Made by a program: the position numbers and the translations under genes. Below, one piece after another: positions 10,107-33,449 of a DNA stretch of 39,609 bases (position 1 is the first letter of the stretch; every line of letters begins with the position of its first letter). Under the pieces are notes generated by a model. That model was not told where the DNA came from and ran no database searches. It saw only the letters and a list, made by a program, of their open reading frames with translations. Source of the stretch: Rhodobacter viridis (lineage in GTDB: Bacteria > Pseudomonadota > Alphaproteobacteria > Rhodobacterales > Rhodobacteraceae); NCBI RefSeq assembly GCF_003217355.1, contig NZ_QJTK01000022.1, positions 1 through 39,609 of the forward strand, in the 5' to 3' direction.

Positions 10107-10115
10107 ACGCTTGGC

Positions 10116-13274: not shown

Positions 13275-13356
13275 GCTGGACCCTCCCGCGGCGAAGATGC
13301 GGTGCGCGGTGCAGGATTGTCAAATCCGCACCGCGCACCGCAAGGGCGGGCCGGGC

Positions 13357-13827: not shown

Positions 13828-13839
13828 CTCGGGTCTCCC

Positions 13840-15315
13840 TCAGGCACGCACAAGGAATTCGGTCATCATGCCGGTCGCAAGATGGCCCATGTGGTGGCAA
13901 TGCAGCATCCAGGGCGCGGCCTCGCCCGCATCCAGTGCGACCGTCACGCTGCCCATCGGCGGCACCGAAACGGTGTCGCGCACGGCGCCGGCGAAGCGGG
14001 TGCCGTTCACCTCGATCACCTGAAACGTATGGCCGTGCAGGTGCATCGGATGCGCCATCATCGACATGTTGTGAAACATCATCTCGACCCGCTCGCCCGA
14101 TTTCGCCTCGACCGGACGGCGGTTTTCCCAGCTGCGCCCGTCGATCGTCCATTGATAGGGCAGCATCGACCCCATCAGCATCACCATCGGCTGCGCCGTG
14201 GCAGGCCGGGCGGCCAGCGGCGTGACGGCGCGCAAGACGATCTCCTGCGTCATGTCGCCCGAGACCGCCGGATGCGGGTTTTCGGAGAGATCGGCCAGCT
14301 TCGGCACCGCGGCCCCTTTCGGCGCAAGGATCAGCCCGGTGCGCTCGCGCGTGCCTTCGCGCAGGGCAAGGATCGGCACGGCAGTGCCATCGCCCGACAA
14401 GTCGATCTCGATGTCGAGCCGCTGGCCCGGCGAAATCGCAAACCGCGTGCCGGGCAGCGGCACCACCGGGTTGCCATCGACCGCGACGAGCCGCGCCGTG
14501 GCCGCGCCGGTGTCGATCCAGAAGGCGGTCATCGCCGCGCCGTCGATCACCCGCAGCCGCACCCGGCCGCCCTTTTCGACCCTCACCACCTCGGGATCGA
14601 CCAGCGTGCGGTCGTTCGCAAGATAGGCGTCGAACTCGTAATCGTTCAGATCCATCGACATGCCGCCCTCCATCGAGGCGTGCATCTCGGCCATGCCGGG
14701 CATGGACATCATGTCCCCCATGCCCTGCATCCCCGGCATCGGCGCGGCGGAATGATCCATGGCGTCGTGATCCATCGCCGTGCCGCCGGTGACCGTCTCG
14801 AGCACCTCCTGCGGGGTCGCGAAGGCGAAATCATGCAGCAGCATCACCACCTCCTGCCGGTCCTCGGCGACCTCTTCGGGGCGGCGCACGATCAGCGGCG
14901 CGGCCAGAAGACCGATTTCCTGCTCGGGGATATGGCTGTGCATCCAGAACGTGCCGGGGCGGGCGGCAAAGTCGAAGCTGCGGCTTTGCCCCGGTTTCAG
15001 CATCGGGTTGGTGTTCGGCACGCCATCCTGCGCATTGGGCGGGATCTGCCCGTGCCAATGCACGATGGTGTCGATGTCGAGCGCATTCGTCAGATCGGTG
15101 CGGAAGCGCTGGCCCGGATCAAGGCGCAGGCCGGGGCGGCCCTGCGCATCCAGAAGGCCCATCACCGTGGCGGCGCGGCCGTTGACCTCGATCACCCGCG
15201 TCGTGGCGGTGAGCGAAAAGGTGTCGGCAGCGGCCCGGGCACGGGCGGGCACAAGGGGAAGCGCGGCAAAGGCAGCGGTTGCGGCCAGAAAGCCGCGGCG
15301 GGTGAGTGTCGTCAT
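13840..15315 (-). CDS. Tat-exported multicopper oxidase, CopA/CueO-like with Met-rich segment
   Basis: 491 residues from the chosen start. The leader TTLTRRGFLAATAAFAALPL is a twin-arginine signal. The copper ligands are complete: HWHG (His86, His88), WMHSHIP (His126, His128), HPMHLHGH, and the C-terminal HCHHMGHLATGM (His472, Cys473, His474, His478, Met483), so type 1, 2 and 3 sites should form. Between them lies a methionine- and histidine-rich stretch (MDHDAMDHSAAPMPGMQGMG and onward), as in copper-resistance oxidases, where it binds Cu(I). It probably oxidises periplasmic Cu(I). ATG 15315 is used since the open frame further upstream lacks the signal-peptide pattern and overlaps the previous gene. 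Confidence 0.92.
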   Translation of the reverse strand: MTTLTRRGFLAATAAFAALPLVPARARAAADTFSLTATTRVIEVNGRAATVMGLLDAQGRPGLRLDPGQRFRTDLTNALDIDTIVHWHGQIPPNAQDGVPNTNPMLKPGQSRSFDFAARPGTFWMHSHIPEQEIGLLAAPLIVRRPEEVAEDRQEVVMLLHDFAFATPQEVLETVTGGTAMDHDAMDHSAAPMPGMQGMGDMMSMPGMAEMHASMEGGMSMDLNDYEFDAYLANDRTLVDPEVVRVEKGGRVRLRVIDGAAMTAFWIDTGAATARLVAVDGNPVVPLPGTRFAISPGQRLDIEIDLSGDGTAVPILALREGTRERTGLILAPKGAAVPKLADLSENPHPAVSGDMTQEIVLRAVTPLAARPATAQPMVMLMGSMLPYQWTIDGRSWENRRPVEAKSGERVEMMFHNMSMMAHPMHLHGHTFQVIEVNGTRFAGAVRDTVSVPPMGSVTVALDAGEAAPWMLHCHHMGHLATGMMTEFLVRA

Positions 15316-15352
15316 GATGATCTCCGGTTCAAAAAGGGGAACTTGGCAGAGA

Positions 15353-15682
15353 TCAGGCGCGGGGCGGTGGGGCCTCGGGGGCTGGCACGCGCAGGGCGGC
15401 AAGCGGCAAGCGCGCGGGTGGGGTCAGGGTCGACACCCGCTCGGCCCGGGCGGCGGGCAGCACCGGCTCCGGCGTCAGCGAACTCGCCAGACAATGTTCA
15501 AGACAGGCCGCGGCCGCCTTGTGCAGGTCTGGTGCTGCGGAGCCATGCCCGGCATGGGCGGCGCAGGTCTGAGGGGCCGCGGGCATCGCGTGATCTGCGG
15601 CACAGCCAAGGTCGGGCAAAGCCAGTCCCGCCACGAAAATGGCGATCAGGGACAGCCGAAGCAGGGCGAAGAGATACCGCAT
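15353..15682 (-). CDS. small exported His/Cys-containing protein of the copper operon
   Basis: 109 residues, not assignable to a named family by eye. It starts MRYLFALLRLSLIAIFVAGL, a clear export signal, followed by a short mature region with scattered Cys and His (CAADHAMPAAPQTCAAHAGH, then CLEHC) and a Pro/Ala-rich tail. It is the first gene of the minus-strand set and ends 37 bases before the multicopper oxidase start. Similar small exported proteins commonly open copper operons in this group, so a periplasmic copper-binding or sensing role is plausible but inferred. The start at 15682 is picked because the signal begins there; the frame is open a little further upstream. Confidence 0.6.
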   Translation of the reverse strand: MRYLFALLRLSLIAIFVAGLALPDLGCAADHAMPAAPQTCAAHAGHGSAAPDLHKAAAACLEHCLASSLTPEPVLPAARAERVSTLTPPARLPLAALRVPAPEAPPPRA

Positions 15683-15805
15683 AGACCGATCATGGCACGT
15701 CGCGCGCCCGCTGTCAGGTGACAAATGCGGGATGGATCGGCGCCGAGGCCCTCCATTGGCCGGGAGCGTCGTCCGCCGACCGCGGGGCGGCAGTTCCGCA
15801 CGCCC

Positions 15806-16429
15806 TCACGGCTGCGCCAGAAGCTTTCGCAAATTGTCCGCCCGCCAAGGCTTGCCGCCGGGCGTGGTGACACCTTCGGCATTCAGCGCCCGGGCGATCT
15901 CGGCAAAGCTGGTCCCAGCTTCCCGCATCGCCCGGATGCGCGCCGCGATCTCGGCCCTGGCCTTGGGTTTGAGCGCGGTGTGGGTTTCCGTTGCCTGTTC
16001 CCAGGCGCGGAAATGCGACACCGGGTCAAAGATCTGCCCGTCGATCAGCACCGGCACCGGATCAAGCGCCATCACCCGCGGCTCGGTCTGCAAGCGCCCC
16101 CAAAGGCTCGCATGCGGGCGCCAGTGAAAGCTTTCGGCGAAGTTGACCACGGCCAGAGTGGCCTCCATCGCCTCGGCCTTCGCCAAGAGCCGCTCGACCT
16201 CGGGCAGGATGGCGCTGGTGCCACGATCCGCGCGCGTTTCCATGAAGGCGTCCTCGGCTACCACCTGACCGCCTTCATCCTTGGCCCAGCGGTGCACCCG
16301 TTCGCGCTGATAACGGATCGCGCGGCTGGCGGCAGCGGCATCGGCGATGCCTTTGGGCAGGCGGGTGAAGCCCAGCCAGGGCACGGGAAGGGTCCAGTAA
16401 AAACCGATGATGCGAAGGGGGCTGGGCAT
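15806..16429 (-). CDS. serine-recombinase-like protein, degenerate
   Basis: 207 residues. The first half (RAIRYQRERVHRWAKDEGGQ, then LPEVERLLAKAEAMEATLAVVNFAE) resembles the helix and sheet pattern of the resolvase catalytic domain, but the usual catalytic serine near the N-terminus is not visible. The C-terminus (AGTSFAEIARALNAEGVTTP, then KPWRADNLRKLL) is the helix-turn-helix seen at the end of large serine recombinases. It is therefore probably a non-catalytic relative with a DNA-binding or structural role, not an integrase. It diverges from the fusion gene at 16517 with an 87-base gap, so the two share a promoter region. Confidence in the frame is good, in function low. Confidence 0.65.
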   Translation of the reverse strand: MPSPLRIIGFYWTLPVPWLGFTRLPKGIADAAAASRAIRYQRERVHRWAKDEGGQVVAEDAFMETRADRGTSAILPEVERLLAKAEAMEATLAVVNFAESFHWRPHASLWGRLQTEPRVMALDPVPVLIDGQIFDPVSHFRAWEQATETHTALKPKARAEIAARIRAMREAGTSFAEIARALNAEGVTTPGGKPWRADNLRKLLAQP

Positions 16430-16516
16430 GGGGCCTCGACGCGGAATTTTCCGACAAAGAACCGGCGGGGCCGGGTTGGGGGGCAGAAAGGGCCATCAGC
16501 ACAGGAGATAGCAAGA

Positions 16517-18316
16517 ATGACCCGTCATTTCCACCTGCCCAGCCCTGCCGATTTGCTCGACGGCGTTCTGGCTGCGGTGCATCAGGCAGGAACGATGCTC
16601 TGGACCGAGTTTCACCGCCCCGGCGGGCCGCGCGGGCAAGGCGGCCATGCCGAGATTGACACCGAGATCGAGACGTTTCTGAAAGCCCAACTGCTGGCGC
16701 TGCATCGCTGCGACTGGCGGGGCGAGGAACTGCCGCGCGAGGGGACCGGGCATGCCGACGTCTGGGCGGTCGATCCGCAGGACGGCACCTCGGCCTTTTT
16801 GCGCGGCCATCGGGGATCGGCGATTTCGGTGGCGCTCTTGCGCCATGGGCAGCCGGTGCTTGGGGCGATCTATGCGCCGACTGCGCGCGCCGATGCGGGC
16901 GACCTGATCGCTTGGGCCGAGGGGCGGCGCCTGACCCGCAACGGCCAGCCGGTCGGGCCGCTGGCCCCGCGCCGCTATGATGCCGCGACCGTCGTTGCGC
17001 TGAACGAACAGGCGGGCGATTTCGCCGCCGCCAATCATGCCCGCCTTGCCCCGGCCGCGCTGCGGGCGCTCCCCTCGATTGCCTATCGGCTGGCGCTCGC
17101 TGCGGTGGGCGAGGTCGACGCGGCCGTTTCGATCACCCAGGGGCTCGACAGTTACGACATCGCCGCGGGTCATGCGGCGCTGATCGGTGCTGGCGGTGTG
17201 CTGGTGCAGCTGACTGGCGCCCCGGTGGTGCATGGTCGGGGCGGGTTTTCGGGCTGCATCGGTGGGGCGCCCGAGGTGGTGGCTGAGCTTGTGCGCCGGA
17301 AACCGCAGGCCGAGCGGCGGGTGGCCCGTCATCCTGCTCGGACCGCCAAGCCTTGCAACGAAAGCCTGATGCTGGACCGCGCACAGGGCGCGCTTCTGGG
17401 CCTTCTGGCGGGCGACGCTTTGGGCGCGCAGGTGGAATTTCTGAGTGCCGAGGCGATCCGCGCCCGCCATCCCGAAGGGGTGACAGAGCTGCGCCCCGGC
17501 GGCACCTGGAATCTGCTCGCCGGGCAGCCTACCGACGACGGCGAGATGGCGCTGGCGCTGGCGCGCAGCATCGTCGCGGCGCGGGGCTATTCGACCGAGG
17601 CGGCCGGGCAAGCCTATCTCGACTGGGGCCGCTCGCAGCCCTTCGACATCGGCACGACGACGCGGGCGGGGCTGGCGGCACTGGCCGGACGGGGGCGGGC
17701 GAATGCGCAATCGCAAGCCAATGGCGCGCTGATGCGGGCGGCGCCCATCGGCATCGCGGCGAAAGGGGTGCCGAATCGCGCCGCCGCCTGGGCACGGGCG
17801 GATGCGGCGCTGACCCATCCGCACCCGGTTTGTGCCGCGGCCAATGCCGCCTTCTGCGCCGCGATTGCGGTGGGGGTGGCGGGGGGCGACCGCCGCGCGA
17901 TGGTCGAGGCCGCGATGGAATGGGCCGATGTGCTGGGTGATCCGGCGGGCGAGGTGGTGCGGCAGTGCCTCCGCGCGGCGGCCGAAGCTCCGCCCGCGGA
18001 TTTCATGCGCCAACAGGGTTGGGTGCTGATCGCGCTGCAAAACGCCTTTCACCGGCTGATTTCGGGGCAGGGGTTGGTGCAGGCGCTTATCGACACCGTG
18101 GCGCTGGGCGGTGACACCGACACCAACGCGGCGATTTGCGGCGCGCTTCTGGGCGCGGTCGAGGGGCGGTCTGCGCTGCCCACGCGCTGGCAAGGACTGA
18201 TTCTCGGCTGCCGGGCGGTTGCTGCGCCGGATGTCGCCCATCCGCGCCCGCCCAGCTTCTGGGCTGACGACGCGCTTGATCTGGCCGAGGCGCTGCTGAT
18301 GGTCGCGGCCCCCTGA
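16517..18316 (+). CDS. fusion: inositol-monophosphatase-like domain plus ADP-ribosylglycohydrolase domain
   Basis: 599 residues in one frame. Residues 1 to about 260 are an inositol monophosphatase/CysQ-type phosphatase: WRGEELP (Glu70, Glu71), AVDPQDGTSAF (Asp86, Asp89) and the closing metal aspartate in DSYDIAAG (Asp214). A short Arg-rich linker (about 260-285) leads to an ADP-ribosylglycohydrolase (DraG/ARH) domain: RAQGALLGLLAGDALGAQVE, PTDDGEMALALARSI (339-353) and GGDTDTNAAICGALLGA (531-547), the two dimetal motifs. Both halves keep their metal ligands, so both may be active. A plausible role is sequential removal of ADP-ribose or a related nucleotide and its dephosphorylation, but no substrate is visible. 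AGGAG lies 9 bases before ATG 16517. It is the last clear gene before the tRNA-Cys scar. Confidence 0.85.
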   Translation: MTRHFHLPSPADLLDGVLAAVHQAGTMLWTEFHRPGGPRGQGGHAEIDTEIETFLKAQLLALHRCDWRGEELPREGTGHADVWAVDPQDGTSAFLRGHRGSAISVALLRHGQPVLGAIYAPTARADAGDLIAWAEGRRLTRNGQPVGPLAPRRYDAATVVALNEQAGDFAAANHARLAPAALRALPSIAYRLALAAVGEVDAAVSITQGLDSYDIAAGHAALIGAGGVLVQLTGAPVVHGRGGFSGCIGGAPEVVAELVRRKPQAERRVARHPARTAKPCNESLMLDRAQGALLGLLAGDALGAQVEFLSAEAIRARHPEGVTELRPGGTWNLLAGQPTDDGEMALALARSIVAARGYSTEAAGQAYLDWGRSQPFDIGTTTRAGLAALAGRGRANAQSQANGALMRAAPIGIAAKGVPNRAAAWARADAALTHPHPVCAAANAAFCAAIAVGVAGGDRRAMVEAAMEWADVLGDPAGEVVRQCLRAAAEAPPADFMRQQGWVLIALQNAFHRLISGQGLVQALIDTVALGGDTDTNAAICGALLGAVEGRSALPTRWQGLILGCRAVAAPDVAHPRPPSFWADDALDLAEALLMVAAP

Positions 18317-19022: not shown

Positions 19023-19457
19023 ATGTTGGACGAGAAGGAAGGCGGCGATGTGGTGGTCTGGGGAATCCCGGTGATCACCGCCGACAATGGGCGTCGAATC
19101 TGGCCCGATGAGATCAAGGCGATGGCGGTGAAGAAGATCGAGGCCGGCACCAAGATCGTCACCGTCGCGAAGGAGATCGGGGCCAACGAATCCCTGGTCG
19201 CGAAATGGGCGCGCGCCGAATTGCCCGAGCTGCCGCGCCGGGGGAGGCCGCAGGGAAAGACTGTCTCGCAGGGCAAGTCTCCGCAGTTCGTCGAGGTGAT
19301 GGCGCCCTCGGAACCGGTGCGCGCCACGAGGCAGACGGGCGCCGCTGACGCGGCCGCCTGTCAGATCCGGATCGGCGACGCCGAGATATCGCTGCGCGGT
19401 GACTTTCCGGCCGAGCAGCTGGCCGAGATCCTGCGTGCGGTGAGGGCCTCGCAATGA
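19023..19457 (+). CDS. tnpA: IS66 accessory protein TnpA
   Basis: 144 residues. A helix-turn-helix region (KIVTVAKEIGANESLVAKWA) lies after an acidic N-terminus, and a C-terminal LRGDFPAEQLAEILRAVRAS matches the first open frame of IS66-type elements, a DNA-binding accessory protein. GAAGGAGG lies 5-6 bases before ATG 19023. It overlaps tnpB by 4 bases (ATGA). The protein looks intact, but without TnpC it cannot support transposition here. Confidence 0.88.
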   Translation: MLDEKEGGDVVVWGIPVITADNGRRIWPDEIKAMAVKKIEAGTKIVTVAKEIGANESLVAKWARAELPELPRRGRPQGKTVSQGKSPQFVEVMAPSEPVRATRQTGAADAAACQIRIGDAEISLRGDFPAEQLAEILRAVRASQ

Positions 19458-19804
19458 GTTACCACACCCCGAGCTACCGCATTTACCTCGCCACCGAGCC
19501 AATCGATTTTCGCAAGGGCATGGACGGGCTGGTGGCGCATGTCGCGAGCCAGTTCCAGCTCGACCCGTTCGACGGCGCGATCTGGGTGTTCCGGTCGCGG
19601 CGCGCCGACAAGCTGAAGATGATCGTCTGGGACGGCACCGGGCTGGTGCTGACGATGAAGCGGCTCGATGGCAAGCGCTTCGTCTGGCCGAAGGCGCAAT
19701 CCGGGCCGATGATGCTGAACCAGGTGCAGTTCGACGCCCTCTTTGCCGGGGTCGATTGGCGCGGCATCGCGGTCAACGCTCCGCGCAAGCCGGTCATCGC
19801 CTGA
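19454..19804 (+). CDS. tnpB: IS66 accessory protein TnpB
   Basis: 116 residues, full length for IS66 TnpB. The N-terminus IYLATEPIDFRKGMDGLVAH and the WVFRSRRADKLKMIVWDGTG segment are diagnostic for the IS66 Orf2 family. It is translationally coupled to tnpA. The end (GVDWRGIAVNAPRKPVIA) fits the family, so the truncation of the element falls after this gene. Confidence 0.92.
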   Translation: MSYHTPSYRIYLATEPIDFRKGMDGLVAHVASQFQLDPFDGAIWVFRSRRADKLKMIVWDGTGLVLTMKRLDGKRFVWPKAQSGPMMLNQVQFDALFAGVDWRGIAVNAPRKPVIA

Positions 19805-19880: not shown

Positions 19881-21005
19881 ATGCTCCGCCACAAGATATT
19901 GCTGGTCAAATATCCGTCGGACGAGACCCAGAAATCGATCGAACTGCGCCTGTCCGAACACCTCAAGACCCTTCGGCGGGCGATGATCCACGTCGAGTTG
20001 GACGCACTCCTGGCCGAGGATCCGCCCCGCCCTGCGGACCCCAAGGCCGCCGCGGACAATCCCCGGCAAATGGCTCCGATCATCACATTGGCAGACGCGG
20101 ATTGCCGCAAGATCACGCGCCGAGCAAAGCGGTTGATCGAGCGCCGCGAGGCCGCCTCGGGGCTCGCTCACTTGCGCAAAGAAGATCGGGATCGGCTTGC
20201 CGCCCTGCGCGACGGTGTCAATCTGATCCGCATCCCGTCGGAGCACCGTGCGGATGAGATCGCAGCGGAATTGCATGCGGAATATCCTTGGATGGCACCT
20301 GCAACGGAAATCATCTGGCACGCGTTGCGGAAATCCGTTTGCGAAGGCTGGCCGGGCGTTCGCCTGCCGCCGCAGCTGCTTGACGGGCCGCCCGGGATCG
20401 GCAAATCGACTTGGGCACGTCATCTGGCTACCGCGCTGCGCATGCCGTCGATGTCAGTCGAAGCGACGGTCGAGAACGCCAGTTTCGGGGTTCTCGGCTG
20501 CCAGCGCGGCTGGGCCACCGCAGGACCCGGGCGGCTGCTCCAGCTGATCCTTCAGGAGAGGGTTGGCAACCCGATCGTCGTGATCGATGAACTCGAAAAG
20601 GCTGGTCGTGTGACAGGGACGAATGGCGGGTCCTATGATCTGTGCGGCGGACTGTTGCCACTGTTGGAGCCCGCAACCGCAAGTCATTGGACTTGCCCGT
20701 ATTTTCAAGTGCCATTTGACTTGGGACAGGTGTCATGGGTGATGACCGTCAACGCGACGCGCCCCCTTCCAGAGCCGCTGCTGAGCCGCTGTCCACCGAT
20801 CCGACTGCCGCACCTGACGACGTCGGATTTAACCGGCTTTGCCCGCCGCCAAGGCGCGCGGCGTGCTTTGAGCGATGACAGCATCGATGTGATCGTGGAA
20901 GCGATCCAAGCGAGCGCAACTCCTGCCCAGCCGATCTCGCTGCGCACGGTGATGAGGATGATCGCGCGTGCCGAGACGCTTGAGGCGGGACCGCGGCAAC
21001 ACTGA
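19881..21005 (+). CDS. Lon-type AAA+ ATPase without protease domain
   Basis: 374 residues. The first 150 residues form a charged helical region (YPSDETQKSIELRLSEHLKT at the front) with no named domain. The AAA+ core follows: Walker A GPPGIGKST (169-177), Walker B IVVIDELEKAG (232-242), sensor 1 in WVMTVNATRPLPEPLLSRC (Asn291) and an arginine (about Arg303) where a finger is expected. The order and the GLLPLLEPATASHW stretch resemble the Lon ATPase module, but the protein stops about 70 residues after it, with no serine-lysine protease. AAAAGGAAA is 5-8 bases before ATG 19881. Isolated Lon-like ATPases are often found with conflict systems; the role here is unknown. A small protein follows 52 bases later. 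Confidence 0.75.
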   Translation: MLRHKILLVKYPSDETQKSIELRLSEHLKTLRRAMIHVELDALLAEDPPRPADPKAAADNPRQMAPIITLADADCRKITRRAKRLIERREAASGLAHLRKEDRDRLAALRDGVNLIRIPSEHRADEIAAELHAEYPWMAPATEIIWHALRKSVCEGWPGVRLPPQLLDGPPGIGKSTWARHLATALRMPSMSVEATVENASFGVLGCQRGWATAGPGRLLQLILQERVGNPIVVIDELEKAGRVTGTNGGSYDLCGGLLPLLEPATASHWTCPYFQVPFDLGQVSWVMTVNATRPLPEPLLSRCPPIRLPHLTTSDLTGFARRQGARRALSDDSIDVIVEAIQASATPAQPISLRTVMRMIARAETLEAGPRQH

Positions 21006-21297: not shown

Positions 21298-21488
21298 TCG
21301 ATCACGATCACCATCTATTCCCGCATGACCGCTTCGGGCGGAGCGGCTTAGTCCCTCCACCCGATCAGGCTACTTCGACCAGCCGACGCCCAAAGCGGCA
21401 GCTGCATAACAAAGGCGGAAAACTACTTGGAAAACGCCCTGACCCTGTTCAGATCAACAGAGCCACCTCTCACGTCAGGGAAGCCTGA

Positions 21489-21516
21489 TTGACTGCTAGA
21501 CTTGATACTTTAGTAT
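21489..21516 (+). promoter_or_regulatory. candidate sigma70-type promoter for the ABC-3C operon
   Basis: TTGACT (21489-21494) and TAGTAT (21511-21516) are separated by 16 bases, about 50 bases before the first ABC-3C start codon. The region from 21488 is AT-rich compared with its surroundings. The -10 overlaps an imperfect palindrome, GATACTTTAGTATATC, which could be an operator. The stretch 21298-21488 has no convincing gene. Confidence 0.45.
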
Positions 21517-21565
21517 ATCCATAGTTACAAAGAGGCTAGGCTTCTGCACGTTCGATAGGTGGATT

Positions 21566-22789
21566 ATGAATGAGAGGTCGCGCGTCGACAAGACAAGCGC
21601 AGAAGACAAGTCAATCGGATTCGACTACCAGTATTACTATTTTTTGAATGAACTCTTGAACCTGAAGAGCGGCCAAACTGCGGGCTACGAAGTTCTAGAT
21701 GATGTTCACATCGAGCGTGCGGACGGCAAAAAATTGCTCATCCAATTGAAACATACCGTCCAGAAAAATGCACAAGGAAATCCTATAAACCTTACCGCGC
21801 TCGACCCTGATCTCTGGAAGTCGATTTCTAACTGGTGCAAAGTGATTGTCGATCCGGCAGACGGACGGACGGCCACGGCTGATCAACTGGCATTTCTGAA
21901 GAATACCTCATTTTTGCTTGCATCCAACAAATCCGAAAACGCTCGAAACACTGTCTTGTCTTCGATCGATGAGTTCTGGAACGGCGCAAAACCGCACGCT
22001 GGTTTCATAGCGGATATCCAAGCGCTTAAGGCCGAGACCAAAGATGAGACCATCCAAGGATATATAGACGAGCTCCTAAACCTTGACTCTCGTGTATCGG
22101 AGGCGTTCCTTCGGAATCTATCGTTCGGACTGGGCCTCGATGAGATCATCGCTCGGTGCAAAGCATCGATTTTGGAAAAGCAAATCCACCCTACCAGGGT
22201 CGAAGACGTGTTTCACGCCGTGGACTCCAAGCTCCGAGCGAACTCCTTTGCGACGGTGAAGGCGGGAAGAAAAATCAGCTTAAGCTTTGAGCAATTCAAC
22301 TTGGAATACCGGAGAGACTTTGACAAGGCGAGAAGTGCGGGGTTCGTGATTCGAGATCTTACCTCCGCCCTTCCTGCAAATCTTTCAGACCAGACCTTCA
22401 TCAAGCAACTTTTGGACATCGGCGATATTGAGACCGATGACGTCGAAATTCTAACAAAGTTCACCATCATGCGACTGAATTTCCGCGGCAATATTGAGAA
22501 GTGGATTCAAGACGGTGATATTACGCAGTCTGATGTCTATGCCCTTGAGCAAGAGGCCGACACTTACTGGGACAACTCTTTTCTCGCCGGTTACCCTGGC
22601 CGCAGACCGCCGCCGAACGAGTCGGCGGCAGTGGCAGCGGCGCGGGGTATCGTTCAAGAGCTACGCAAAATCAAACTGCCCCTCGCCTCTCAGGATCTAC
22701 CCATCAGAATGAGCAACGGCGGCTTCTACGAATTGTCCGATCGGCCCGTCATGGGTTGGCAGCACAACTGGAAAGATCTGTATAATTGA
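21566..22789 (+). CDS. ABC-3C system effector, DUF4297-like restriction-fold nuclease
   Basis: 407 residues. The N-terminal 65 residues hold the pattern of DUF4297/Cap4-type dsDNA endonucleases: a GFDYQYYYFLNELLNL helix, then YEVLDDVHIE (Glu42, Asp45, Asp46) and LLIQLKHT (Gln60, Lys62), giving the E, D, QxK catalytic set of the PD-(D/E)XK fold. The remainder is mostly helical with no other named domain and may sense or bind the partner ATPase. It is the first gene of a three-gene set with a middle component and a DUF3732 ATPase, the arrangement called a three-component ABC (ABC-3C) conflict system. AGGTGG lies 3 bases before ATG 21566. The AT-richer codon use differs from the chromosomal genes to the left, suggesting transfer. 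Confidence 0.8.
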   Translation: MNERSRVDKTSAEDKSIGFDYQYYYFLNELLNLKSGQTAGYEVLDDVHIERADGKKLLIQLKHTVQKNAQGNPINLTALDPDLWKSISNWCKVIVDPADGRTATADQLAFLKNTSFLLASNKSENARNTVLSSIDEFWNGAKPHAGFIADIQALKAETKDETIQGYIDELLNLDSRVSEAFLRNLSFGLGLDEIIARCKASILEKQIHPTRVEDVFHAVDSKLRANSFATVKAGRKISLSFEQFNLEYRRDFDKARSAGFVIRDLTSALPANLSDQTFIKQLLDIGDIETDDVEILTKFTIMRLNFRGNIEKWIQDGDITQSDVYALEQEADTYWDNSFLAGYPGRRPPPNESAAVAAARGIVQELRKIKLPLASQDLPIRMSNGGFYELSDRPVMGWQHNWKDLYN

Positions 22790-23232
22790 AACTGAGCAGC
22801 TTCTATAACAATCTGGGAATTGATGCTTTCGCGATCTCAGCTGTTTTGGAGAAGGCGGAGTTTCTGACGTTCCCGCGCTTGATGTTAATCCTTCCGATTA
22901 TCGCGCACCGCGAAATGGTAAGGCAATTCGCACGTGCTCAGTTCCAAATCGTTAGTTTTGAGCAGTATTTTATCGAGAACACGCAGAATTTTTACAACTT
23001 CTCCGAACGCTATCACGCCTGTCTGGCACCCACTGTCAATGCGCTTCAGTTGCTAAACGAGATTGGCTCCCTTGAATTTCGCACTGAAGGCGCTGCTATT
23101 GTCTCTCCGATCCCGATCACCGCGGCCCTAGGCAGCCGGGCTGATCGGATTCATCGCGCTTCGTCCAATGTCGCTGCAATCATCTCGGGTAGTGTCGACG
23201 TTTTCTACCTCAATGCGAGGATTGAACTGTGA
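22786..23232 (+). CDS. ABC-3C system middle component
   Basis: 148 residues, an all-helical small protein. The N-terminus (FYNNLGIDAFAISAVLEKAE, then FPRLMLILPIIAHREMVRQF) and the FSERYHACLAPTVNALQLLNEIG stretch resemble the ABC-three-component middle-component families, which bridge effector and ATPase. The start is TTG 22786 inside the TTGA overlap with the preceding stop; no ATG lies near the conserved N-terminus, and coupling by overlap explains the weak start. It ends in a GTGA overlap with the ATPase gene, so all three proteins should be made in fixed ratio. The family call rests on size, position and pattern. Confidence 0.75.
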   Translation: MKLSSFYNNLGIDAFAISAVLEKAEFLTFPRLMLILPIIAHREMVRQFARAQFQIVSFEQYFIENTQNFYNFSERYHACLAPTVNALQLLNEIGSLEFRTEGAAIVSPIPITAALGSRADRIHRASSNVAAIISGSVDVFYLNARIEL

Positions 23233-25106
23233 AATTTCATATCGAAAGCCTTAATCTCTGGCTAACCAACGGCAAAATCCGGACTCTGCCATTCCGTCCC
23301 AACAAGGTGAACGTGATCACTGGCGCCAGCCACACGGGTAAGACCGCAATCCTCGATATCTTCGATTATTGTTTCTTCGCCAGTCGGCACCGCATTTCGG
23401 AAAGCGTCATCAACGAAAGTACCCTTTGGTATGGCCTAAAAATCCACGTAAACGACAAAGTCTATACACTGGCAAGAAGGGCACCAACTGGCCCAGCGGT
23501 CTCAAATGAGTATTATTTCTCCTCCATCGGTGAGATCCCCGAAGGAGCTCCAGAGGCAAACATTCGGGAATCGGCTCTGAAGGTGCTGCTCAGCGCTGAT
23601 TTCGGTATCGACCAAGATGTGAAAATCCCATTCGGTGGGCAATATCTGCAGGCAGGTTCGCGTATATCGCTTCGCTATTTCCTGCTGTTCAACACAATCT
23701 CACAGGACATCATCACCCACAGTGAGCAGTTTTTCGACAAGCAGGATCAGCCGCGTTACCGAGAAGCATTGCCTCGCATATTCGACATCGCAGTAGGGAT
23801 CGATACTGTCGAAAACATCCTCAAACGCGATAAGCTCACGCAGCTCGAAAAGCGATTGGCGCGCCTGCAGAAGCAATCGGCAAAAGCAGCCACAAATCGT
23901 GAAGCGTTTCACGCAGAGCTTGCCGAGACGACTGCTCGGGCAATGTCCTACGGACTTATATCCGACAATTCTGATGCCGAGCAAGCGGTGGCGGATTTAC
24001 AGCGGATGGTTTCTGAAAGAGAGACGGGCTCGGAATCGTTCGTCTCAGGGAGGCACGCGGAAATCTCTGCCGAACTCTATCGGGTTTCCCGAAAAATAAA
24101 CGGACTTCGAAAATTCCTCAGCGAATATAGCGCGCACAAGGGTGTGCTGTCAGTAACCGCCGACAGCCTAAAGCCGATCGCCTATCTCCGAGACAACCAC
24201 GCGGATACCGTTCGCACTTCCGTCTTTTTCGAAATCCTTGAGCGGCTGGAAAAGGGTTTGATAGAGATCAAGAAAGAAGTCTCTAAAAAAAACCCTCTGG
24301 ACAGCAATGTCGGAGAGTTAATCAAAGAACTGGAAGGCCGACGCGAGCAACTAAAGCGCGAACTTCAAGCCTTGCCTTCGGACAGCTCGGTCTTCGAGAA
24401 CGAGAAAGAGAAATATATTTTCATCGGCGAGACGAAGGCCAAACTTGAATTAGTCGCGGGAACGGAGCGAAACAGTACGCGCAATTTCGAAGCTGACGTT
24501 GAAGATCTGGAGAGGCAAATTGGCGAAATCAATGTCCTGTCAGCGGAGGAGCGCCAGAAGCATTTCACCAGCGTTCTCGATGAGATAATCCAAGAATATA
24601 TTGCTTTGTGCAATGTGGCTCTTGGCAATTACGGAGAATATCGCTCAGCCTTCGACAATAAGGAAAAGAAGCTTCATTTAAGAAAGCCAAAAACTGCGTT
24701 CATAGAAAACGTTGGCAGCAGCTCAAATCATATGTTCCTCCACCTGTTTCTTTTCCTTGGATTGCACGAGGTCATCATGGCGAATGGAGGGCAGCATGTC
24801 GCGCCATTTCTCATTATCGATCAGTTTTCCAGGCCATATTGGGGCGATGACGAGAACGGCAGCGCGAAGAGTGAGCAACCCGATGAGTGGGATCGAGACG
24901 TTAACGAGAGCGACGTCGCCAAAGTTCATTCCGCCCTCAAACTGCTCGACCATTTCATTTCCCAGGCGAACAGCATGGGCAAGGAATTTCAAATCATCCT
25001 GTTCGAGCACATCAAACCGAAATATTGGGAAAGTTTAGAGAATTTCCATCTCGTCGAGATATTCCGGGACGGCAATGCCCTAATTCAAGGCGCACAAGCA
25101 CGCTAG
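23229..25106 (+). CDS. ABC-3C system SMC-like ATPase, DUF3732 family
   Basis: 625 residues. Near the N-terminus FRPNKVNVITGASHTGKTAI holds a Walker A (Gly32 to Thr39). Long coiled-coil stretches occupy about 195-250 and 355-440 (LTQLEKRLARLQKQ, LIKELEGRREQLKRELQ). The C-terminal lobe has the family Walker B region PFLIIDQFSRPYW (Asp531) and ends with ILFEHIKPKYW, as in DUF3732 proteins. This is a RecN/SMC-like ABC ATPase, thought to sense DNA or nucleoprotein state and license the nuclease. The last residues match the family end, so the gene is intact although IS481 sequence begins within a few bases of the stop. GTG 23229 is the start, in a GTGA overlap. Confidence 0.85.
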   Translation: MKFHIESLNLWLTNGKIRTLPFRPNKVNVITGASHTGKTAILDIFDYCFFASRHRISESVINESTLWYGLKIHVNDKVYTLARRAPTGPAVSNEYYFSSIGEIPEGAPEANIRESALKVLLSADFGIDQDVKIPFGGQYLQAGSRISLRYFLLFNTISQDIITHSEQFFDKQDQPRYREALPRIFDIAVGIDTVENILKRDKLTQLEKRLARLQKQSAKAATNREAFHAELAETTARAMSYGLISDNSDAEQAVADLQRMVSERETGSESFVSGRHAEISAELYRVSRKINGLRKFLSEYSAHKGVLSVTADSLKPIAYLRDNHADTVRTSVFFEILERLEKGLIEIKKEVSKKNPLDSNVGELIKELEGRREQLKRELQALPSDSSVFENEKEKYIFIGETKAKLELVAGTERNSTRNFEADVEDLERQIGEINVLSAEERQKHFTSVLDEIIQEYIALCNVALGNYGEYRSAFDNKEKKLHLRKPKTAFIENVGSSSNHMFLHLFLFLGLHEVIMANGGQHVAPFLIIDQFSRPYWGDDENGSAKSEQPDEWDRDVNESDVAKVHSALKLLDHFISQANSMGKEFQIILFEHIKPKYWESLENFHLVEIFRDGNALIQGAQAR

Positions 25107-25107
25107 G

Positions 25108-25259
25108 TGTTTGATCCCACGGTTTGATGGTGCGATCCTTTCGAAGGAATGGAAGGAAGCACTATGGGACAAGTTCGTCACGGGAGCGCCACGACCACGC
25201 ACGCCGTCAGAGCTGCAATACAGCGATCGCAAGCTTCGCTCGCGCAGCTGAGCCGGGAT
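25108..25259 (+). pseudogene. IS481-family transposase fragment 1 (N-terminus)
   Basis: From 25164 the frame reads MGQVRHGSATTTHAVRAAIQ followed by RSQASLAQLSRD, the N-terminus of an IS481-type transposase. It then breaks abruptly at about 25259, and the continuation is found inverted at 26157-26265. The element end is probably at the TGTTTGATCC just after the ATPase stop. Dead remnant. Confidence 0.7.
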
Positions 25260-26052
25260 GCAATCGACCTCGGGCTCATGCAGGGCATAGATCTTGTCAC
25301 GTCCTTTCGGTTCTTGGCTCAGCAGGCGTGAGACCAGAACCAGCCGGTCGAGGATACGTTCGCGCAAGTCCCGCAGCACCCGGCCAGTGTAACCTTTCAA
25401 CGTTCTCAGCGCCTTGCGCATGCGCTTGAACTGTTTGGCATGGGCGTAACGGCCAACGCGCACCGCCAGACGCGGGGCAAGGCGGGCGTAGCTCTGGCGT
25501 AATTCCACCCCGGCCTCGACCGCCAGCGCCACCAGCTGCGCCCGTGCCCGTTCATAAAGCCGGGCGTCGGTCGGGTGGGCGATGGTCTTCTCCATGATGG
25601 TGGTGTCGACCGCCACCCGCTTCAGGCTGCCCGCATCGAGCGCCCCGGCCTTCTGCCCGGCGAGGATCGTCTGCGTCAGCATCCATTCCACACCTTCCTC
25701 GCCAATCCTCTGCCGCCAGCGGGTCAGCGACGGGGGGGTCGATCGGCGGCCGATGCTGAAAGAACGTCTCGCCGGTGAAGTGCTGGTAGTAGGGATTTTC
25801 GACCCAACGCGCGACGACTGCCTCGTCCGAGAGCCGAAACGCGTGCTGCAGATAAAGCAGCCCGGCGACCAACCGGGGCGGCGTGGCCGGGCGGCCGGTG
25901 CCCGAGGGGAAGAACCCGGACCATTGCTCCTCGAACACCTCCCAGTCGATCAGCGCGGCGAGTTTCACCAATTCGTGGCGCGGGTCGATCATGTCGACCA
26001 GACGCGGGCGCAGCAGGTCGTCTTGTTCCGGCGGGCGGGAGCGATGCTTCAT
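25260..26052 (-). pseudogene. IS5-family transposase fragment 1 (N-terminal two thirds, frameshifted)
   Basis: On the minus strand from 26052 the protein runs MKHRSRPPEQDDLLRPRLVD to FQHRPPIDPP, then changes frame at a run of seven G on the plus strand (25732-25738). One base fewer would continue the family sequence SLTRWRQRIGEEGVEWMLTQ in frame. It proceeds through VAVDTTIMEKTIAHPTDA, which includes the first catalytic Asp of the DDE set, to YALHEPEVDCI, where it is cut at about 25260. The C-terminal third lies on the opposite strand at 26266-26689. So this copy is both frameshifted and split. Confidence 0.8.
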
Positions 26053-26156
26053 GCGGCGAACCGAAATTGCAGGGTTTCGAGCGGAATAATAGGAAACCCT
26101 GCAGGACATGACGAGAAAAACCGACAGTTCTGCGCAGGAAATCAGAGGCTTCGCAG

Positions 26157-27241: not shown

Positions 27242-27451
27242 ACCTAGGCTTTGCGGCCCGATGAAGGTGGTCCACACTGAATAGGAAGAACGCGAGGGAA
27301 CCACTTCACGACAGCACCGCACTACTATATGGTTGACGTAGGATCAGTGATGCAATGCACACTTTCCGTTCTTGAGTGGAGTCAATGCGGATTTTGCATC
27401 CTTTATGGTTTCGCTATCTGCTGGGCGCAGAGGCAGTAGGAGTTGTGCAAC

Positions 27452-28198
27452 GTGGATTTGAATGCCGATATCGTAAATGAAGAAATATCTCGTATTGCAA
27501 GGGAGAAATGGGGGAGAGATAATAGAGTTTTGCTTGTATCTCAGCTTGGATCGCGCATTTCCGCGGATGTCAAGAAATTTATAACAGAAAGTGGTGGCGG
27601 CTTAAAGCGCTATATCGCGAATCAGAATGGCGCGAAATTTAGATATATTGACTTTCCTTCAAAGGGTGGAGCAATAGCTCCAAGGGATCTGACCAGCCAC
27701 CTCAGTGACGATGATCTGGAAGCGTCATTCAGATCTGGTGGCGCTATATCTTCATCTTCTGATCTCAGGGCGCCTGTTTATCGGAGGGAAATATGGATGG
27801 CTTTTCAATCCGCGATAGCTGAGGGTTCTCGACGCTACATACGTTTCGATAGCCACGGGAGGCCAGAGGCGATTGACTTGGATCGTGAAATTGAAAATCC
27901 AAGTGAAGCCTTTGAGGTTTTGGGGAAAGATATTGTTTTAGGCGCGGTGGGAATTGAGGGGAAATTATCCGTTGGCGCATCAATCAAGGCGTGGGCTGAA
28001 AGAAATTCCATTGAATTAACGCGCATTGAATTTAAGCCAGGGCATCCAGTCAAAAACAACAAAACCGCAAGTGCTGAGAGCAAACGGAAGCCATATCTTG
28101 CGGATGCCTTGAATCTTCTCAGCGATGAAGAACTTCGCAGAATAAGCATTCCTGCGGATCTTGTGATGGCCATGATGCGACGGTTGACTTTGAATTGA
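27452..28198 (+). CDS. unrecognised protein, first gene of an AT-rich pair
   Basis: 248 residues, no confident family. The N-terminal 60 residues (RVLLVSQLGSRISADVKKFI, then GLKRYIANQNGAKFRYIDFP) have the helix-helix-strand look of small OST-HTH/LOTUS-type nucleic-acid-binding domains, but this is a weak resemblance. A serine-rich linker and a second module (RREIWMAFQSAIAEGSRRYI to WAERNSIELTRIEF) follow, then a basic segment and a helical C-terminus. GTG 27452 is chosen because AGGAG (27438-27442) lies 9 bases upstream. AT-rich codons (AAA, ATA, TTT) contrast sharply with the chromosome. Its stop overlaps the TTG start of the next gene. Confidence 0.65.
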   Translation: MDLNADIVNEEISRIAREKWGRDNRVLLVSQLGSRISADVKKFITESGGGLKRYIANQNGAKFRYIDFPSKGGAIAPRDLTSHLSDDDLEASFRSGGAISSSSDLRAPVYRREIWMAFQSAIAEGSRRYIRFDSHGRPEAIDLDREIENPSEAFEVLGKDIVLGAVGIEGKLSVGASIKAWAERNSIELTRIEFKPGHPVKNNKTASAESKRKPYLADALNLLSDEELRRISIPADLVMAMMRRLTLN

Positions 28199-29031
28199 TC
28201 GACAAAAGAATCGCAGTCTTCAGCGGATTTAATACTTCGATTGTTGATTTGATGCGGCCCCACTTGAAGGGGCGGAATATAGATGTTGTCTGCGTGAGGC
28301 TGTGCGGAAACGGCTATTTTGAGGCGCTCGCAAAGCAACTTCTGTTCGAGATTGATCGCTTAAAAGGGGCGCGCAGCGATGTCAGATTTTTTGTAATTTT
28401 AGTCAGCGCAATCGCCGAGGATAAGCTTGACGACGAGTATGTTTCTTTTTTTCCTGCACTCATTCGCCTAGGTATTCAAAAAGATCAAGCAAATAATAAA
28501 TCCGCCACGAAGAAAATTGTGGAACGAATAGATGCACTATTTAGGGATGAATCTTTTGTGGATTTGATTAAGACAGTATCGGCCAGGAAAAAATCGCACT
28601 TGCTTCTCCCTGTGCGGAATGCTGCCGAGACTAGCTTGCGGAAAATGTTTGATGAAATATATGCCGGAGGAGAGCTTCGGTCGAAGGAGGGGCGATTTTC
28701 TGCAGAGCTTGAAATTTTTGAAAAAACGGTTTTGAAAAAGATTACGGTTATACGTCGATCCAAGGCATTAAAAATGGGCGCGATTAGTTTTGCTCCTGTA
28801 TTAAATGGTCCTGCGCACCCAATCAGGAGGTGTACGGACACTGCTGTGTGCGATGTGAAGGCAAAATTGCGTTTTGGCGCACTTGTCGCTGAACGGTTTG
28901 AATTTGACGTGACGTGCGACCGAAAGTTGTCAGCGAAATCCTTCTATTTGTGCGGTGGGGGCGACATCAAACCAAGCCAAGAGGATACGCATCTCAACAT
29001 GCGGATTAATGATGACTTTAAAGGAGGATGA
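28195..29031 (+). CDS. unrecognised protein, second gene of an AT-rich pair
   Basis: 278 residues, no recognised family. The N-terminus IDKRIAVFSGFNTSIVDLMR then IDVVCVRLCGNGYFEALAKQ suggests an alpha/beta nucleotide- or metal-binding fold; RFFVILVSAIAEDKLDDEYV could be a second strand-turn with acidic residues. A helical middle part precedes a C-terminal beta-rich region (CDVKAKLRFGALVAERFEFD). No signal peptide or membrane helix. TTG 28195 overlaps the previous stop (TTGA), so translation is coupled, and a hairpin follows the stop. The pair is flanked by IS remnants in a region with other defence genes; a defence or toxin-antitoxin role is speculation. Confidence 0.65.
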   Translation: MIDKRIAVFSGFNTSIVDLMRPHLKGRNIDVVCVRLCGNGYFEALAKQLLFEIDRLKGARSDVRFFVILVSAIAEDKLDDEYVSFFPALIRLGIQKDQANNKSATKKIVERIDALFRDESFVDLIKTVSARKKSHLLLPVRNAAETSLRKMFDEIYAGGELRSKEGRFSAELEIFEKTVLKKITVIRRSKALKMGAISFAPVLNGPAHPIRRCTDTAVCDVKAKLRFGALVAERFEFDVTCDRKLSAKSFYLCGGGDIKPSQEDTHLNMRINDDFKGG

Positions 29032-29058: not shown

Positions 29059-29394
29059 CTAAAAGTTTTGGTTACCAGCCTAACATGATCTCAACGAGCC
29101 AGCCTTGAAAGGCTGATTACCCTCGCGATCTCTGCCGCTCAAAACCCAGTAGCTAACTGAGGCCAAAACCACCCAATATAACCCTTTCGGGATTACACAG
29201 TAGCTTTTGGCGGCACGAGCTGGGACTAAAGTTTGGTACATACACTTCAGCTTGCCCAGCAGAGCATGATCACGTCGAGCATTTTGCGGCCAGTCGCTCG
29301 GCTTGTCAAGGCGACTCGCGCAAGTTTTTTTCATATTTTCGCGCCAAGCCACGCCTAACATTTTGAAAATTTGTTAGTATTCACCCCAAACGGT

Positions 29395-29451
29395 GCTGTG
29401 TTGCACAAATCTGTGGAGGCCTGCCCATCCCCCAGATTCATGCAACACAGC
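29395..29451. repeat. 57-bp inverted-repeat unit, MITE-like or fused IS ends
   Basis: GCTGTGTTGCACAAATCTGTGG (29395-29416) and CCCCAGATTCATGCAACACAGC (29430-29451) are complementary at 19 of 22 positions and enclose only 13 bases. The GCTGTGTTGCA termini look like ends of IS5-group elements, so this is either a collapsed IS with nothing inside or a miniature element. Apart from this unit, 29059-29663 shows no convincing gene; its last part is the leader of the IS110 copy. Confidence 0.55.
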
Positions 29452-29663
29452 CCACGCCACGGCGATCACCGCGCCATAGCGCGACAATCCTCAGATACTG
29501 AACGACTGCCAAGGTCTGAGTTTTGACACATGGGGTAATCGCGGGAGCGAGTCACCCCGAACCGTAGTGCCTTGCGGATTTTGGGCCGGTGGTTGTTCCC
29601 CGATAGGATGCAGATACGGGCTCACGATGGACATCGGGCCCAGACATCGACAGGAGAACAACC

Positions 29664-29928
29664 ATGTGTGACTATATCGGCCTGGACATATCCCTGAAAG
29701 AGACGGCGATTTCCCTGCGCCGGGGCGGCCAACGGGTCTGGCGCGGCAAATGCACCTCGGATCCAAGCGCAATTGCAGCGCTTCTTCGGCGGCGCGCACC
29801 CGATGCAACGCGGGTCGTATTTGAGACTGGTCCGCTGTCGGTTTGGTTCTTTCATGCCCTGAGTGCCGAAAGGGTTCCGGCGATCTGCATCGACGCGAGA
29901 CATGCAAAGGCCGCGCTCGACCACCCTC
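29664..29928 (+). pseudogene. IS110-family transposase fragment 1 (N-terminus)
   Basis: 88 codons beginning MCDYIGLDISLKETAISLRR, with the first DEDD catalytic Asp in GLDIS, and FETGPLSVWFFHALS, ending at HAKAALD. ACAGGAG lies just before the ATG. The frame is cut by the left end of an IS3-family element at 29929. In an intact IS110 the RuvC-like domain would continue; about 100 or more residues are missing before the next fragment. Confidence 0.85.
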
Positions 29929-29997
29929 TGTCAGGAAAGTTGTCGCGGTCCCACGATCTGAAATTGTATGCTTTGCGGGGCGAGATGGGATGGAGAC

Positions 29998-30498
29998 GTG
30001 GCGTATTCAGCTGAGAGGAAGGCGGCGGTTCTGACGAAGATGCTGCCGCCGAACAACGTGCCGCTCGCACGGCTGGCGAAAGAGGAAGGGATCAGCCCGG
30101 GCACGCTTGCGAAGTGGCGAGCCGAGGCGCGGGCGAAGGGGCAGTTTCTGCCCGATGCCAATGCGGGGCCTGAGGGCTGGACCTCGGAAGACAAACTGGC
30201 GGCGGTCATTGAGACGGCCAGCTATAACGCGGTCGAGCTCGGCGAATACTGCCGGAGGCGGGACATTTATCCCGAGCAGCTTGCGGTCTGGCGCGAGGCC
30301 TGCGCGCGGGCGAATGACTGGGAACGGGCGGCCACGACGCGGATCGCGCGCGAGGCGAAGGATGACAAGAAGCGGATTCAGCAGCTTGAACGCGAACTGG
30401 CGCGCAAGGAGAAAGCGCTGGCCGAGGCCGCCGCGCTGATGATCTTGCGAAAAAAGGTGGATGCGATCTGGGGCCGCAAGGAGGGCGAGGACGAATGA
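29998..30498 (+). CDS. IS3-family transposase orfA
   Basis: 166 residues. Begins (V)AYSAERKAAVLTKMLPPNN and contains a helix-turn-helix (VPLARLAKEEGISPGTLAKW) and a second one (AVELGEYCRRRDIYPEQLAV). It ends with a leucine-zipper-like coiled coil (DDKKRIQQLERELARKEKAL), as usual for OrfA. GTG 29998 is taken as start because family members begin with (M)AYS; an ATG at 29968 lacks a ribosome binding site. The gene overlaps orfB by 4 bases (ATGA). It appears intact. Confidence 0.75.
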   Translation: MAYSAERKAAVLTKMLPPNNVPLARLAKEEGISPGTLAKWRAEARAKGQFLPDANAGPEGWTSEDKLAAVIETASYNAVELGEYCRRRDIYPEQLAVWREACARANDWERAATTRIAREAKDDKKRIQQLERELARKEKALAEAAALMILRKKVDAIWGRKEGEDE

Positions 30499-31533
30499 CC
30501 TCAGCCTCGGATCGCGCGGAAATTTCTGCCCTTGTGGAGGAGGCGAGGCAGGCGGGGGCGGGCCGCGGCACCGCCTGTGCCGAAATCGGCCTGCACCCGC
30601 GCACGCTCTCGCGCTCGACCAGATCGTGGAGATCTGCGCGAGCCCCGAATTTGCCAGCCTGCCGCCAAGCCAGATCGTGCCGCAGCTGGCCGACCAGGGC
30701 TGCTATATCGCCTCGGAATCGAGCTTTTACAGGGTGTTGCGCGCGTGCGACCAGAACCACCGCCGCGGCCGGGCGCGACCGGCAACACGCCACAAAGCCC
30801 CGACGAGCTTCGAGGCGAAAGGCCCGTGCCAGGTCTGGTCGTGGGACATAACATGGCTGCCGGGGCCGATCGCGGGCGCCTTTTTCTACCTCTATCTCAT
30901 CGTCGACATTTACAGCCGCAAAATCGTCGGCTGGGAGGTGCATGACCGGGAAACGGCCGACTTCGCGGCCGCGCTGTTGCGCCGCGCGGTCTGGGCCGAG
31001 CACTGCCTGACCCACCCGCTGGTGCTGCACGCCGACAATGGCAGCCCGATGAAAGGTGCTACGATGAAGGTGACGATGGAGCGGCTCGGCGTCATCGCCT
31101 CGTTCAGCCGGCCGCGGGTCTCGAACGACAACCCCTTTTCCGAGGCGCTGTTCCGGACCTGCAAACATGTGCCGGGCTGGCCGCCCCGCGGATTTGTCTC
31201 GATCGCCGCGGCGCGCGACTGGGTGCAGGGTTTTGTGAGATGGTACAACACCGAGCATCGCCACAGCGCGATCCGCTTCGTCACGCCGATCAGCGCCATC
31301 GGGGCGCGGAGGCGGCGGTGCTGAGCAACCGCCACCGGATCTACGAGGCAGCGCGCGCGGCGCATCCGGAACGCTGGTCAGGCAAGACGCGGCAATGGAC
31401 GCCGATCGGCTCGGTCTGGCTGAACCCGGAGCGGCCGGAAGCCGGGCGCAAAGGCCATGGGGGCGACGACGCGCTCTCCCACAAAGCTGGCGGCGACGCC
31501 CCCATGGACGGGCCCGCCGAACGCGCAGCCTGA
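30495..31533 (+). pseudogene. IS3-family transposase orfB, broken by two frame lesions
   Basis: The start region (MTSASDRAEISALVEEARQA to GLHPRTLSR) is in one frame. At about 30610 the sequence jumps to LDQIVEICASPEFASLPPSQ in another frame, with some 30 expected residues missing, so a small deletion occurred. The DDE core follows: WSWDITWLPGP, VLHADNGSPMKG, and the Glu region DNPFSEALFRT. Near 31285 a second shift moves the C-terminus (AVLSNRHRIYEAARAAHPER) to the third frame. No active transposase can be made from this copy. Confidence 0.8.
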
Positions 31534-31563
31534 AAACTGGGGATCGTGACAACTTCTTTGACA

Positions 31564-31723
31564 AATACCGTTCGCGGCCGCGCCGCTGAACTTGGCAGCC
31601 AGCTGCTGCAGCTCTCCCGGCGCAGCGAGGCCTGCCAGCGGCTGATGTCCATCCCCGGCATCGGCGCGACCCCCGCGATGTCTTTCACCACGGCTATCGA
31701 AGACCCCGAGAACTTCCGGAACT
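31564..31723 (+). pseudogene. IS110-family transposase fragment 2 (middle)
   Basis: The frame reads RAAELGSQLLQLSRRSEACQ, RLMSIPGIGATPAMSF and EDPENFRN, the start of the Tnp_20 domain (the MSIPGIG helix-hairpin-helix-like motif). It is bounded left by the IS3 end and right by the IS256 element, which splits it at 31723; the frame resumes exactly at 33136. Confidence 0.85.
31715..31723. repeat. target-site duplication TCCGGAACT, left copy
   Basis: The 9-base sequence TCCGGAACT directly precedes the IS256 left end and is repeated exactly at 33136-33144 after the right end. Nine bases is within the usual 8-9 for this family. Removal of the element and one copy restores the IS110 frame. Confidence 0.9.
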
Positions 31724-33135: not shown

Positions 33136-33449
33136 TCCGGAACTCCCGATCAGTCGCTGCCTGGATAGGGCTGACCACGCGCCGCTATCAGTCCGGCGAG
33201 GTCGACTACGACGGCCATATCTCGCGACGCGGGGACGCCCATCTGCGGGGCTTGCTTTACGAGGCGGCCACCGTGGTGCTGACCAGAACAACTGCCGACA
33301 GTGCGCTGAGAACCTGGGGCCTGAAGCTACGGGAGCGGATCGGCTTCAAGCGCGCCGCCGTCGCAGTGGCGCGCAAGCTGGCGGTGATCATGCACGCGAT
33401 GCTGAAATCCGGTCAGACTTTCCAACGACACGCCGAACCCGTGGTCTGA
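33136..33449 (+). pseudogene. IS110-family transposase fragment 3 (C-terminus)
   Basis: Starting in the right copy of the target duplication the frame continues NSRSVAAWIGLTTRRYQSGE, VDYDGHISRRGDAHLRGLLY and ERIGFKRAAVAVARKLAVIM, the conserved C-terminus with the catalytic-serine-like region of IS110 transposases, to the stop at 33449. The first 9 bases are the duplicated target TCCGGAACT. Confidence 0.85.

Follow-up and report, generated by a model that had tools for sequence, protein, structure and literature searches.

Three overlapping genes at positions 21566-25106 of a Rhodobacter viridis contig (NZ_QJTK01000022.1) raise the question of whether they encode a defence system and, if so, of which kind. 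The window analysed is the whole contig, 39,609 bases. Our results make it very probable that the genes form a Lamassu (type II / ABC-3C / DdmABC) operon directed against phages and plasmids, in which LmuB and LmuC would sense DNA and release the nuclease LmuA. The initial annotation had proposed a three-component ABC (ABC-3C) conflict system. This class assignment is supported and can be narrowed to Lamassu type II, the effector being Cap4-like. The three families, the gene order, the overlaps, the motifs and the purifying selection are directly established, as follows.

Subunits, motifs and layout of the operon

21566-22789, + strand: lmuA, ATG start, 407 amino acids; effector subunit with a predicted N-terminal PD-(D/E)xK (Cap4-like) nuclease
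22786-23232, + strand: lmuC, TTG start, 148 amino acids; middle component
23229-25106, + strand: lmuB, GTG start, 625 amino acids; ABC ATPase resembling Rad50 and SMC (structural maintenance of chromosomes) proteins

The third gene was expected to encode a DUF3732 protein, and it does: it matches Pfam DUF3732 (1.4e-37) and the PADLOC LmuB profile (9.6e-89), and its own profile finds the solved LmuB chains 9ny5_D and 9uxl_A (2.7e-47) and 9hqu_A (1.7e-44). It is thus an SMC/Rad50-like subunit of the DUF3732 kind, for which PHROGs offers short matches in the N-terminal P-loop region and one coiled-coil row, nothing more. The first gene matches PADLOC LmuA over residues 9-396 (9.2e-44), and its profile finds the solved LmuA chains 9hqu_C (3.9e-13, residues 9-401) and 9nxx_A (6.5e-9). 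Its N-terminal effector is followed by a probable ABC-3C C-terminal docking region. We assign it as a nuclease because of the PADLOC profile, the solved LmuA chains and the E-DD-QxK motif. The earlier description as a DUF4297-like nuclease holds on these grounds and not through the Pfam model Cap4_nuclease/DUF4297 (PF14130), which reaches 12.6 bits (E 0.16) under a gathering cut-off of 26.2; Pfam CTD7 also stays under gathering (E 0.043). The second gene is the small component between lmuA and lmuB, and its place among the middle components had been named beforehand, with DUF3732 for the third gene, as one of two points on which the class assignment should turn. Pfam MC3 (PF20131) matches it at 26.8 bits, above the cut-off of 23.2, and the three best matches of a fold search are solved LmuC chains, from Protein Data Bank (PDB) entries titled 'Salmonella enterica Lamassu LmuACB in nuclease sequestration state' and 'type II Lamassu, LmuACB with DNA'.

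The order lmuA-lmuC-lmuB is found in the window and in eight fetched loci. Four of these come from a scan of genome contigs with LmuB-derived patterns, which finds close relatives only, and in each of the four lmuA and lmuC stand in order beside lmuB (LmuB identities by tblastn):

L002, Sphingobium soli (Sphingomonadales): 84%
L003, Cereibacter ovatus (Rhodobacterales): 86%
L005, Roseibium limicola (Hyphomicrobiales): 63%
L004, Mesonia hippocampi (Bacteroidota): 45%
L029, Comamonas endophytica: plasmid relative
L030, Methylomonas sp. DH-1: plasmid relative at 5001-8213, with an IS5 transposase gene interrupting lmuB
L031, Agrobacterium tumefaciens Ti plasmid NC_002377.1: plasmid relative
L032: locus in a genome from the family of the window

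The motifs of the two larger subunits are these:

21689-21751, + strand: lmuA nuclease motif E42, D45-D46, Q60-x-K62 (alignment and pattern scan)
23322-23345, + strand: LmuB Walker A GASHTGKT, residues 32-39, intact (motif scan)
24714-24728, + strand: LmuB GSSSN, residues 496-500 (alignment and motif scan)
24807-24830, + strand: LmuB Walker B FLIIDQFS, residues 527-534, with Gln532 in place of the catalytic Glu

Five of five aligned homologues of LmuA keep E42, D45, D46, Q60 and K62 unchanged, and the E-DD-QxK pattern is present in all nine LmuA scanned (the window and the eight relatives above). K62 aligns with a Lys of 9hqu_C; the same position is Ala in 9hqx_A, which we take to be an active-site mutant. 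These residues presumably constitute the PD-(D/E)xK motif, a meaning supported by the Lys-to-Ala difference.

The initial annotation described all catalytic motifs as intact. This stands for the E, D and QxK residues of LmuA, for Walker A and for the Asp of Walker B, but the next residue of Walker B is Gln, not Glu. All 12 related LmuB loci have the Gln (the same nine plus L006, L007 and L039, of whose operons LmuB alone was read; L006 is the same gene as L008), and the replacement is described as general for LmuB (PMC10586767). In four more distant LmuB-like proteins (L034-L037, also numbered L011-L014) the Asp is followed by Ser, Asn or Thr, and DUF3732 was unmatched at 0.01 in three of three scanned. 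All four carry a CxxC zinc hook. This hook is absent at nine of the 12 related loci, including the window, and present in L007, L032 and L039. Since many LmuB have it, but not all (PMC10586767), the hook does not define Lamassu. The GSSSN motif, taken as the equivalent of the ABC signature from its position, is present in LmuB at all seven loci compared (window, L002, L003, L005, L004, L029 and L030), and a D-S-L-x-P stretch lies mid coiled coil in five compared LmuB, L003 included.

The layout of the operon adds the following features:

22786-22789, + strand: TTGA, overlap of the lmuA stop and lmuC start (read in the sequence)
23229-23232, + strand: GTGA, overlap of the lmuC stop and lmuB start (read in the sequence)
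21557-21562, + strand: Shine-Dalgarno-like AGGTGG ahead of lmuA (read in the sequence)
23217-23221, + strand: Shine-Dalgarno-like GAGGA ahead of lmuB (read in the sequence)
21489-21516, + strand: weak candidate sigma-70-type promoter (consensus match only, 9/12 positions), one of seven such matches in the region against 2.9 expected

The three open reading frames (ORFs), all on the + strand, and their two overlaps of 4 nucleotides lie where they had been annotated, and no gene contains a stop or frameshift. When the region was resampled 500 times under a first-order Markov model, the longest stop-free run had a median of 154 codons, a 95th percentile of 228 and a maximum of 328, so the frames of lmuA and lmuB exceed chance. 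That of lmuC is, by length alone, within it; the frame is conserved and under purifying selection, with ratios of non-synonymous to synonymous substitution (dN/dS) of 0.154 and 0.101 against two relatives. The annotated non-ATG starts of lmuC and lmuB are real, though not conserved: over seven compared loci lmuC starts with TTG (three), GTG (two) or ATG (two), and lmuB with GTG (three), ATG (three) or TTG (one). The lmuC/lmuB overlap is 4 nucleotides at eight of nine loci and 1 in L031; between lmuA and lmuC it is 4 at six of nine, 8 in L029 and L032, and nil in L031 (the window is counted, the distant L034-L037 are excluded). Because start codons vary while overlaps are better conserved, the overlap is the constrained feature, and translational coupling is probable. 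The tight stoichiometry that the initial annotation drew from the overlaps is a conjecture.

Apparent transfer, selection and distribution

The cassette looks transferred and kept under selection, because of the limits of DNA similarity, the contrast in G+C, the flanking transposase genes, the sporadic presence and the low dN/dS. Similarity to L003 covers 21358-25106 (87.7%) and ends at the final base of lmuB; similarity to L002 covers 21544-25099 (84.1%). The operon genes have 50% G+C, against 68% on the left (219-18316) and 63% on the right (29100-39609). Six comparisons (lmuA, lmuC and lmuB against L002 and L003) gave dN/dS of 0.10-0.18, whereas synonymous sites are saturated in those with L005. 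The flanking transposase genes are:

19023-19804, upstream: IS66 accessory genes, tnpB above the cut-off and tnpA below
25080-26109, downstream: IS5-family transposase fragments, neither reaching the whole-protein cut-off, which is expected of partial genes

No RepC-like PF03428 of a RepABC plasmid origin was found anywhere in the genome. Synteny defines no empty site, because the flanking genes are uncommon within the genus: matches to the dgt-like gene and to the 863-residue gene described below, some of them partial, turn up in 3 of 18 genomes each, counting its own.

LmuB matches occur in 3 of 61 relatives, own genome included, the other two being 25-30% identical, and in 2 of 385 genomes drawn from the class, the one besides its own being partial and distant (E 1.9e-23). 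Of 72,556 plasmid records 79 contain a match, and 34 of these are typed as conjugative; of 50,697 phage records a single one does, at 22.5% identity. The profile PDLC03859 matches 76 of 295 genomes; we do not use these as Lamassu counts because it also matches 12 of 14 control genomes. One of its matches seemed to offer a second LmuB in the same genome (G000:C5:216705-218177, E 7.5e-16), and was rejected: it is an AAA_13 protein (9.6e-153) with no DUF3732 at 0.01 and reaches the contig end. The motif script was also run on L015-L028, whose similarity to the LmuB of the window is at or near chance, apart from L022 (9.9e-6), whose frame is broken, and L017 (8.5e-4).

Proposed mechanism and its rivals

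Complex formation, sensing, release, tetramer and killing are what we infer from characterised relatives. LmuB and LmuC would act as a DNA sensor that keeps LmuA inactive in the complex. The trigger would be DNA ends or hairpins arising in phage or plasmid replication, in line with the hairpin and DNA-end sensing described for Lamassu (PMC12904381). ATP-bound LmuB would then change shape and release LmuA; in relatives, an addendum citing preprints has the effector liberated and homo-tetramerised (PMC12409362). The freed LmuA would assemble, probably as a tetramer, and cut DNA indiscriminately, as reviews describe for its Cap4 domain (PMC10586767, PMC12409362, PMC12904381). The infected cell would thereby be halted, by the abortive infection reported in characterised relatives (PMC10586767, PMC12409362). 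The PDB titles quoted above agree with this scheme. Since Walker B has Gln532 instead of Glu, ATP would probably be bound and hydrolysed slowly or not at all, making activation a one-way switch.

Several observations weigh against this picture. The predicted structure of LmuA is too poor (mean predicted local distance difference test score, pLDDT, 43.4) for comparison with the restriction-endonuclease fold. LmuC is just 11-15% identical to solved LmuC chains, matches the PADLOC LmuC profile weakly (0.0041), and by sequence or profile finds nothing in the PDB beyond unrelated, chance-level Nse6/KRE29 rows (best E 0.54). As LmuC is so divergent, and LmuA and LmuB also distant from those solved, the trigger and the oligomeric state may differ from those of characterised systems. 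Finally, some hosts have lost the system, since lmuB has an in-frame stop in L003 and is interrupted by the IS5 transposase gene in Methylomonas.

These broken copies would fit a recently arrived passenger whose genes are still intact yet unexpressed or non-functional in the host, as would the transposase genes on both sides and the sporadic presence (own genome plus one distant partial match among the 385 class genomes). Yet the frames are uninterrupted, the nuclease and ATPase motifs intact, and dN/dS is low for all three genes against both L002 and L003, which together render an inactive passenger quite unlikely. We regard as somewhat less unlikely, but still improbable, that the operon is mainly an anti-plasmid device that recognises plasmid replication intermediates and imposes plasmid loss, phage defence being incidental. 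The Vibrio DdmABC system does act on both plasmids and phages (PMC12409362), but relatives are themselves plasmid-borne, in the 79 records counted above with their 34 conjugative ones, which argues against general plasmid incompatibility.

Other doubts concern how the subunits work. LmuA might cut while bound to the LmuB-LmuC scaffold, attacking only the DNA held by the sensor, so that the cell survives. The anatomy of the operon is compatible with both bound action and release, and an LmuB lacking the CxxC hook could have another dimer geometry; but the liberated, tetramerised effector and the abortive infection reported for relatives (PMC12409362, PMC10586767) leave bound cutting a slim chance. 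We lend as little credence to the idea that the window, L002, L003, L005, L004, L029 and L030 are a distinct, widely transferred hookless Lamassu branch, with the GSSSN motif and, in the five compared, the D-S-L-x-P stretch in common, in which the sensor may dimerise differently at the tip and respond to a different DNA trigger. A missing hook does not by itself mark the branch: L031 and L006 also lack it, which lowers the probability slightly. A Lamassu operon that senses DNA and releases its nuclease remains by far the preferred explanation.

Neighbouring genes and known systems

Other genes of the window deserve mention. An 863-residue ORF (15725-18316, +) joins inositol monophosphatase and ADP-ribosylglycohydrolase domains in a single frame. 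Directly after the IS66 tnpA/tnpB, an AAA protein with a Lon-like ATPase region (19881-21005, +) is perhaps a mobile-element passenger, because the genome has a second copy of it on contig C41 (95% identical) and a congener has another (92%). Just past the transposase fragments, ORFs of 251 and 278 residues (27443-28198 and 28195-29031, +) overlap by 4 nucleotides at 45-46% G+C. They match nothing in Pfam (0.01), PADLOC (0.01), NCBIfam (0.1) or PHROGs (0.1), and for the former a search of 61 genomes, its own among them, gives a single weak relative (25%); the pair is a candidate two-gene module without known family. A 1206-residue SIR2-domain protein (33893-37513, +; PF13289 3.8e-16, PADLOC Dsr1 2.2e-85 with its best stretch at residues 4-296) is, from these matches, likely a second, Dsr1-like anti-phage gene, unmatched in 17 other genus genomes searched at E 1e-10. 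The gene at 37713-39401 (-), which we take from reading its sequence to encode a dGTPase-like protein, is probably accessory, because it is matched in only 3 of 18 genus genomes at E 1e-50, own included. Outside the window, the Lamassu-like operon of the Ti plasmid (L031) adjoins TIR-domain and trypsin-like genes.

The initial annotation held that few such systems had been characterised, a view now out of date: a 2023 review files ABC-3C under the Lamassu superfamily (PMC10586767), and several Lamassu complexes are in the PDB. In 2021 the PADLOC paper reported that a type II Lamassu protects against phages (PMC8565338). The solved type II complexes 9hqu (Salmonella enterica), 9uxh and 9ny5 have the same three subunits, recognised by sequence for LmuA and LmuB and by fold for LmuC, the subunit in which their distance from the window was given above. 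In the printed alignments 9ny5_D and 9hqu_A share the Walker B DQ with the LmuB of the window, which lacks CxxC like 9ny5_D and unlike 9hqu_A (CPMC).

Vibrio cholerae DdmABC likewise combines a Cap4 nuclease, a small middle component and an SMC-like ATPase (PMC12409362). PMC12409362 assigns the middle component of DdmABC to DUF6521, and LmuC of the window matches MC3 PF20131, possibly the same Pfam entry. The Ti-plasmid operon has the same three kinds of annotated product, DUF3732, the Walker B DQ and no CxxC, but its LmuB is 23.9% identical to that of the window and its lmuA and lmuC do not overlap. Wadjet (JetABCD) also couples an SMC-like ATPase complex to a nuclease effector (PMC10586767), with other subunits. 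We rejected Wadjet or another SMC system for the window, where the JetC match is weak (1.9e-5 against 9.6e-89 for LmuB) and confined to LmuB residues 201-456. The operon is thus a good fresh example of a known defence complex, not a new kind, and leaves the picture of the Lamassu system unchanged. Its value is comparative: this Lamassu is intact and divergent, with relatives in three orders of Alphaproteobacteria and a remoter one in Bacteroidota, and can serve as a reference when asking how LmuB sensors without a hook work and what DNA structures make them release the nuclease.

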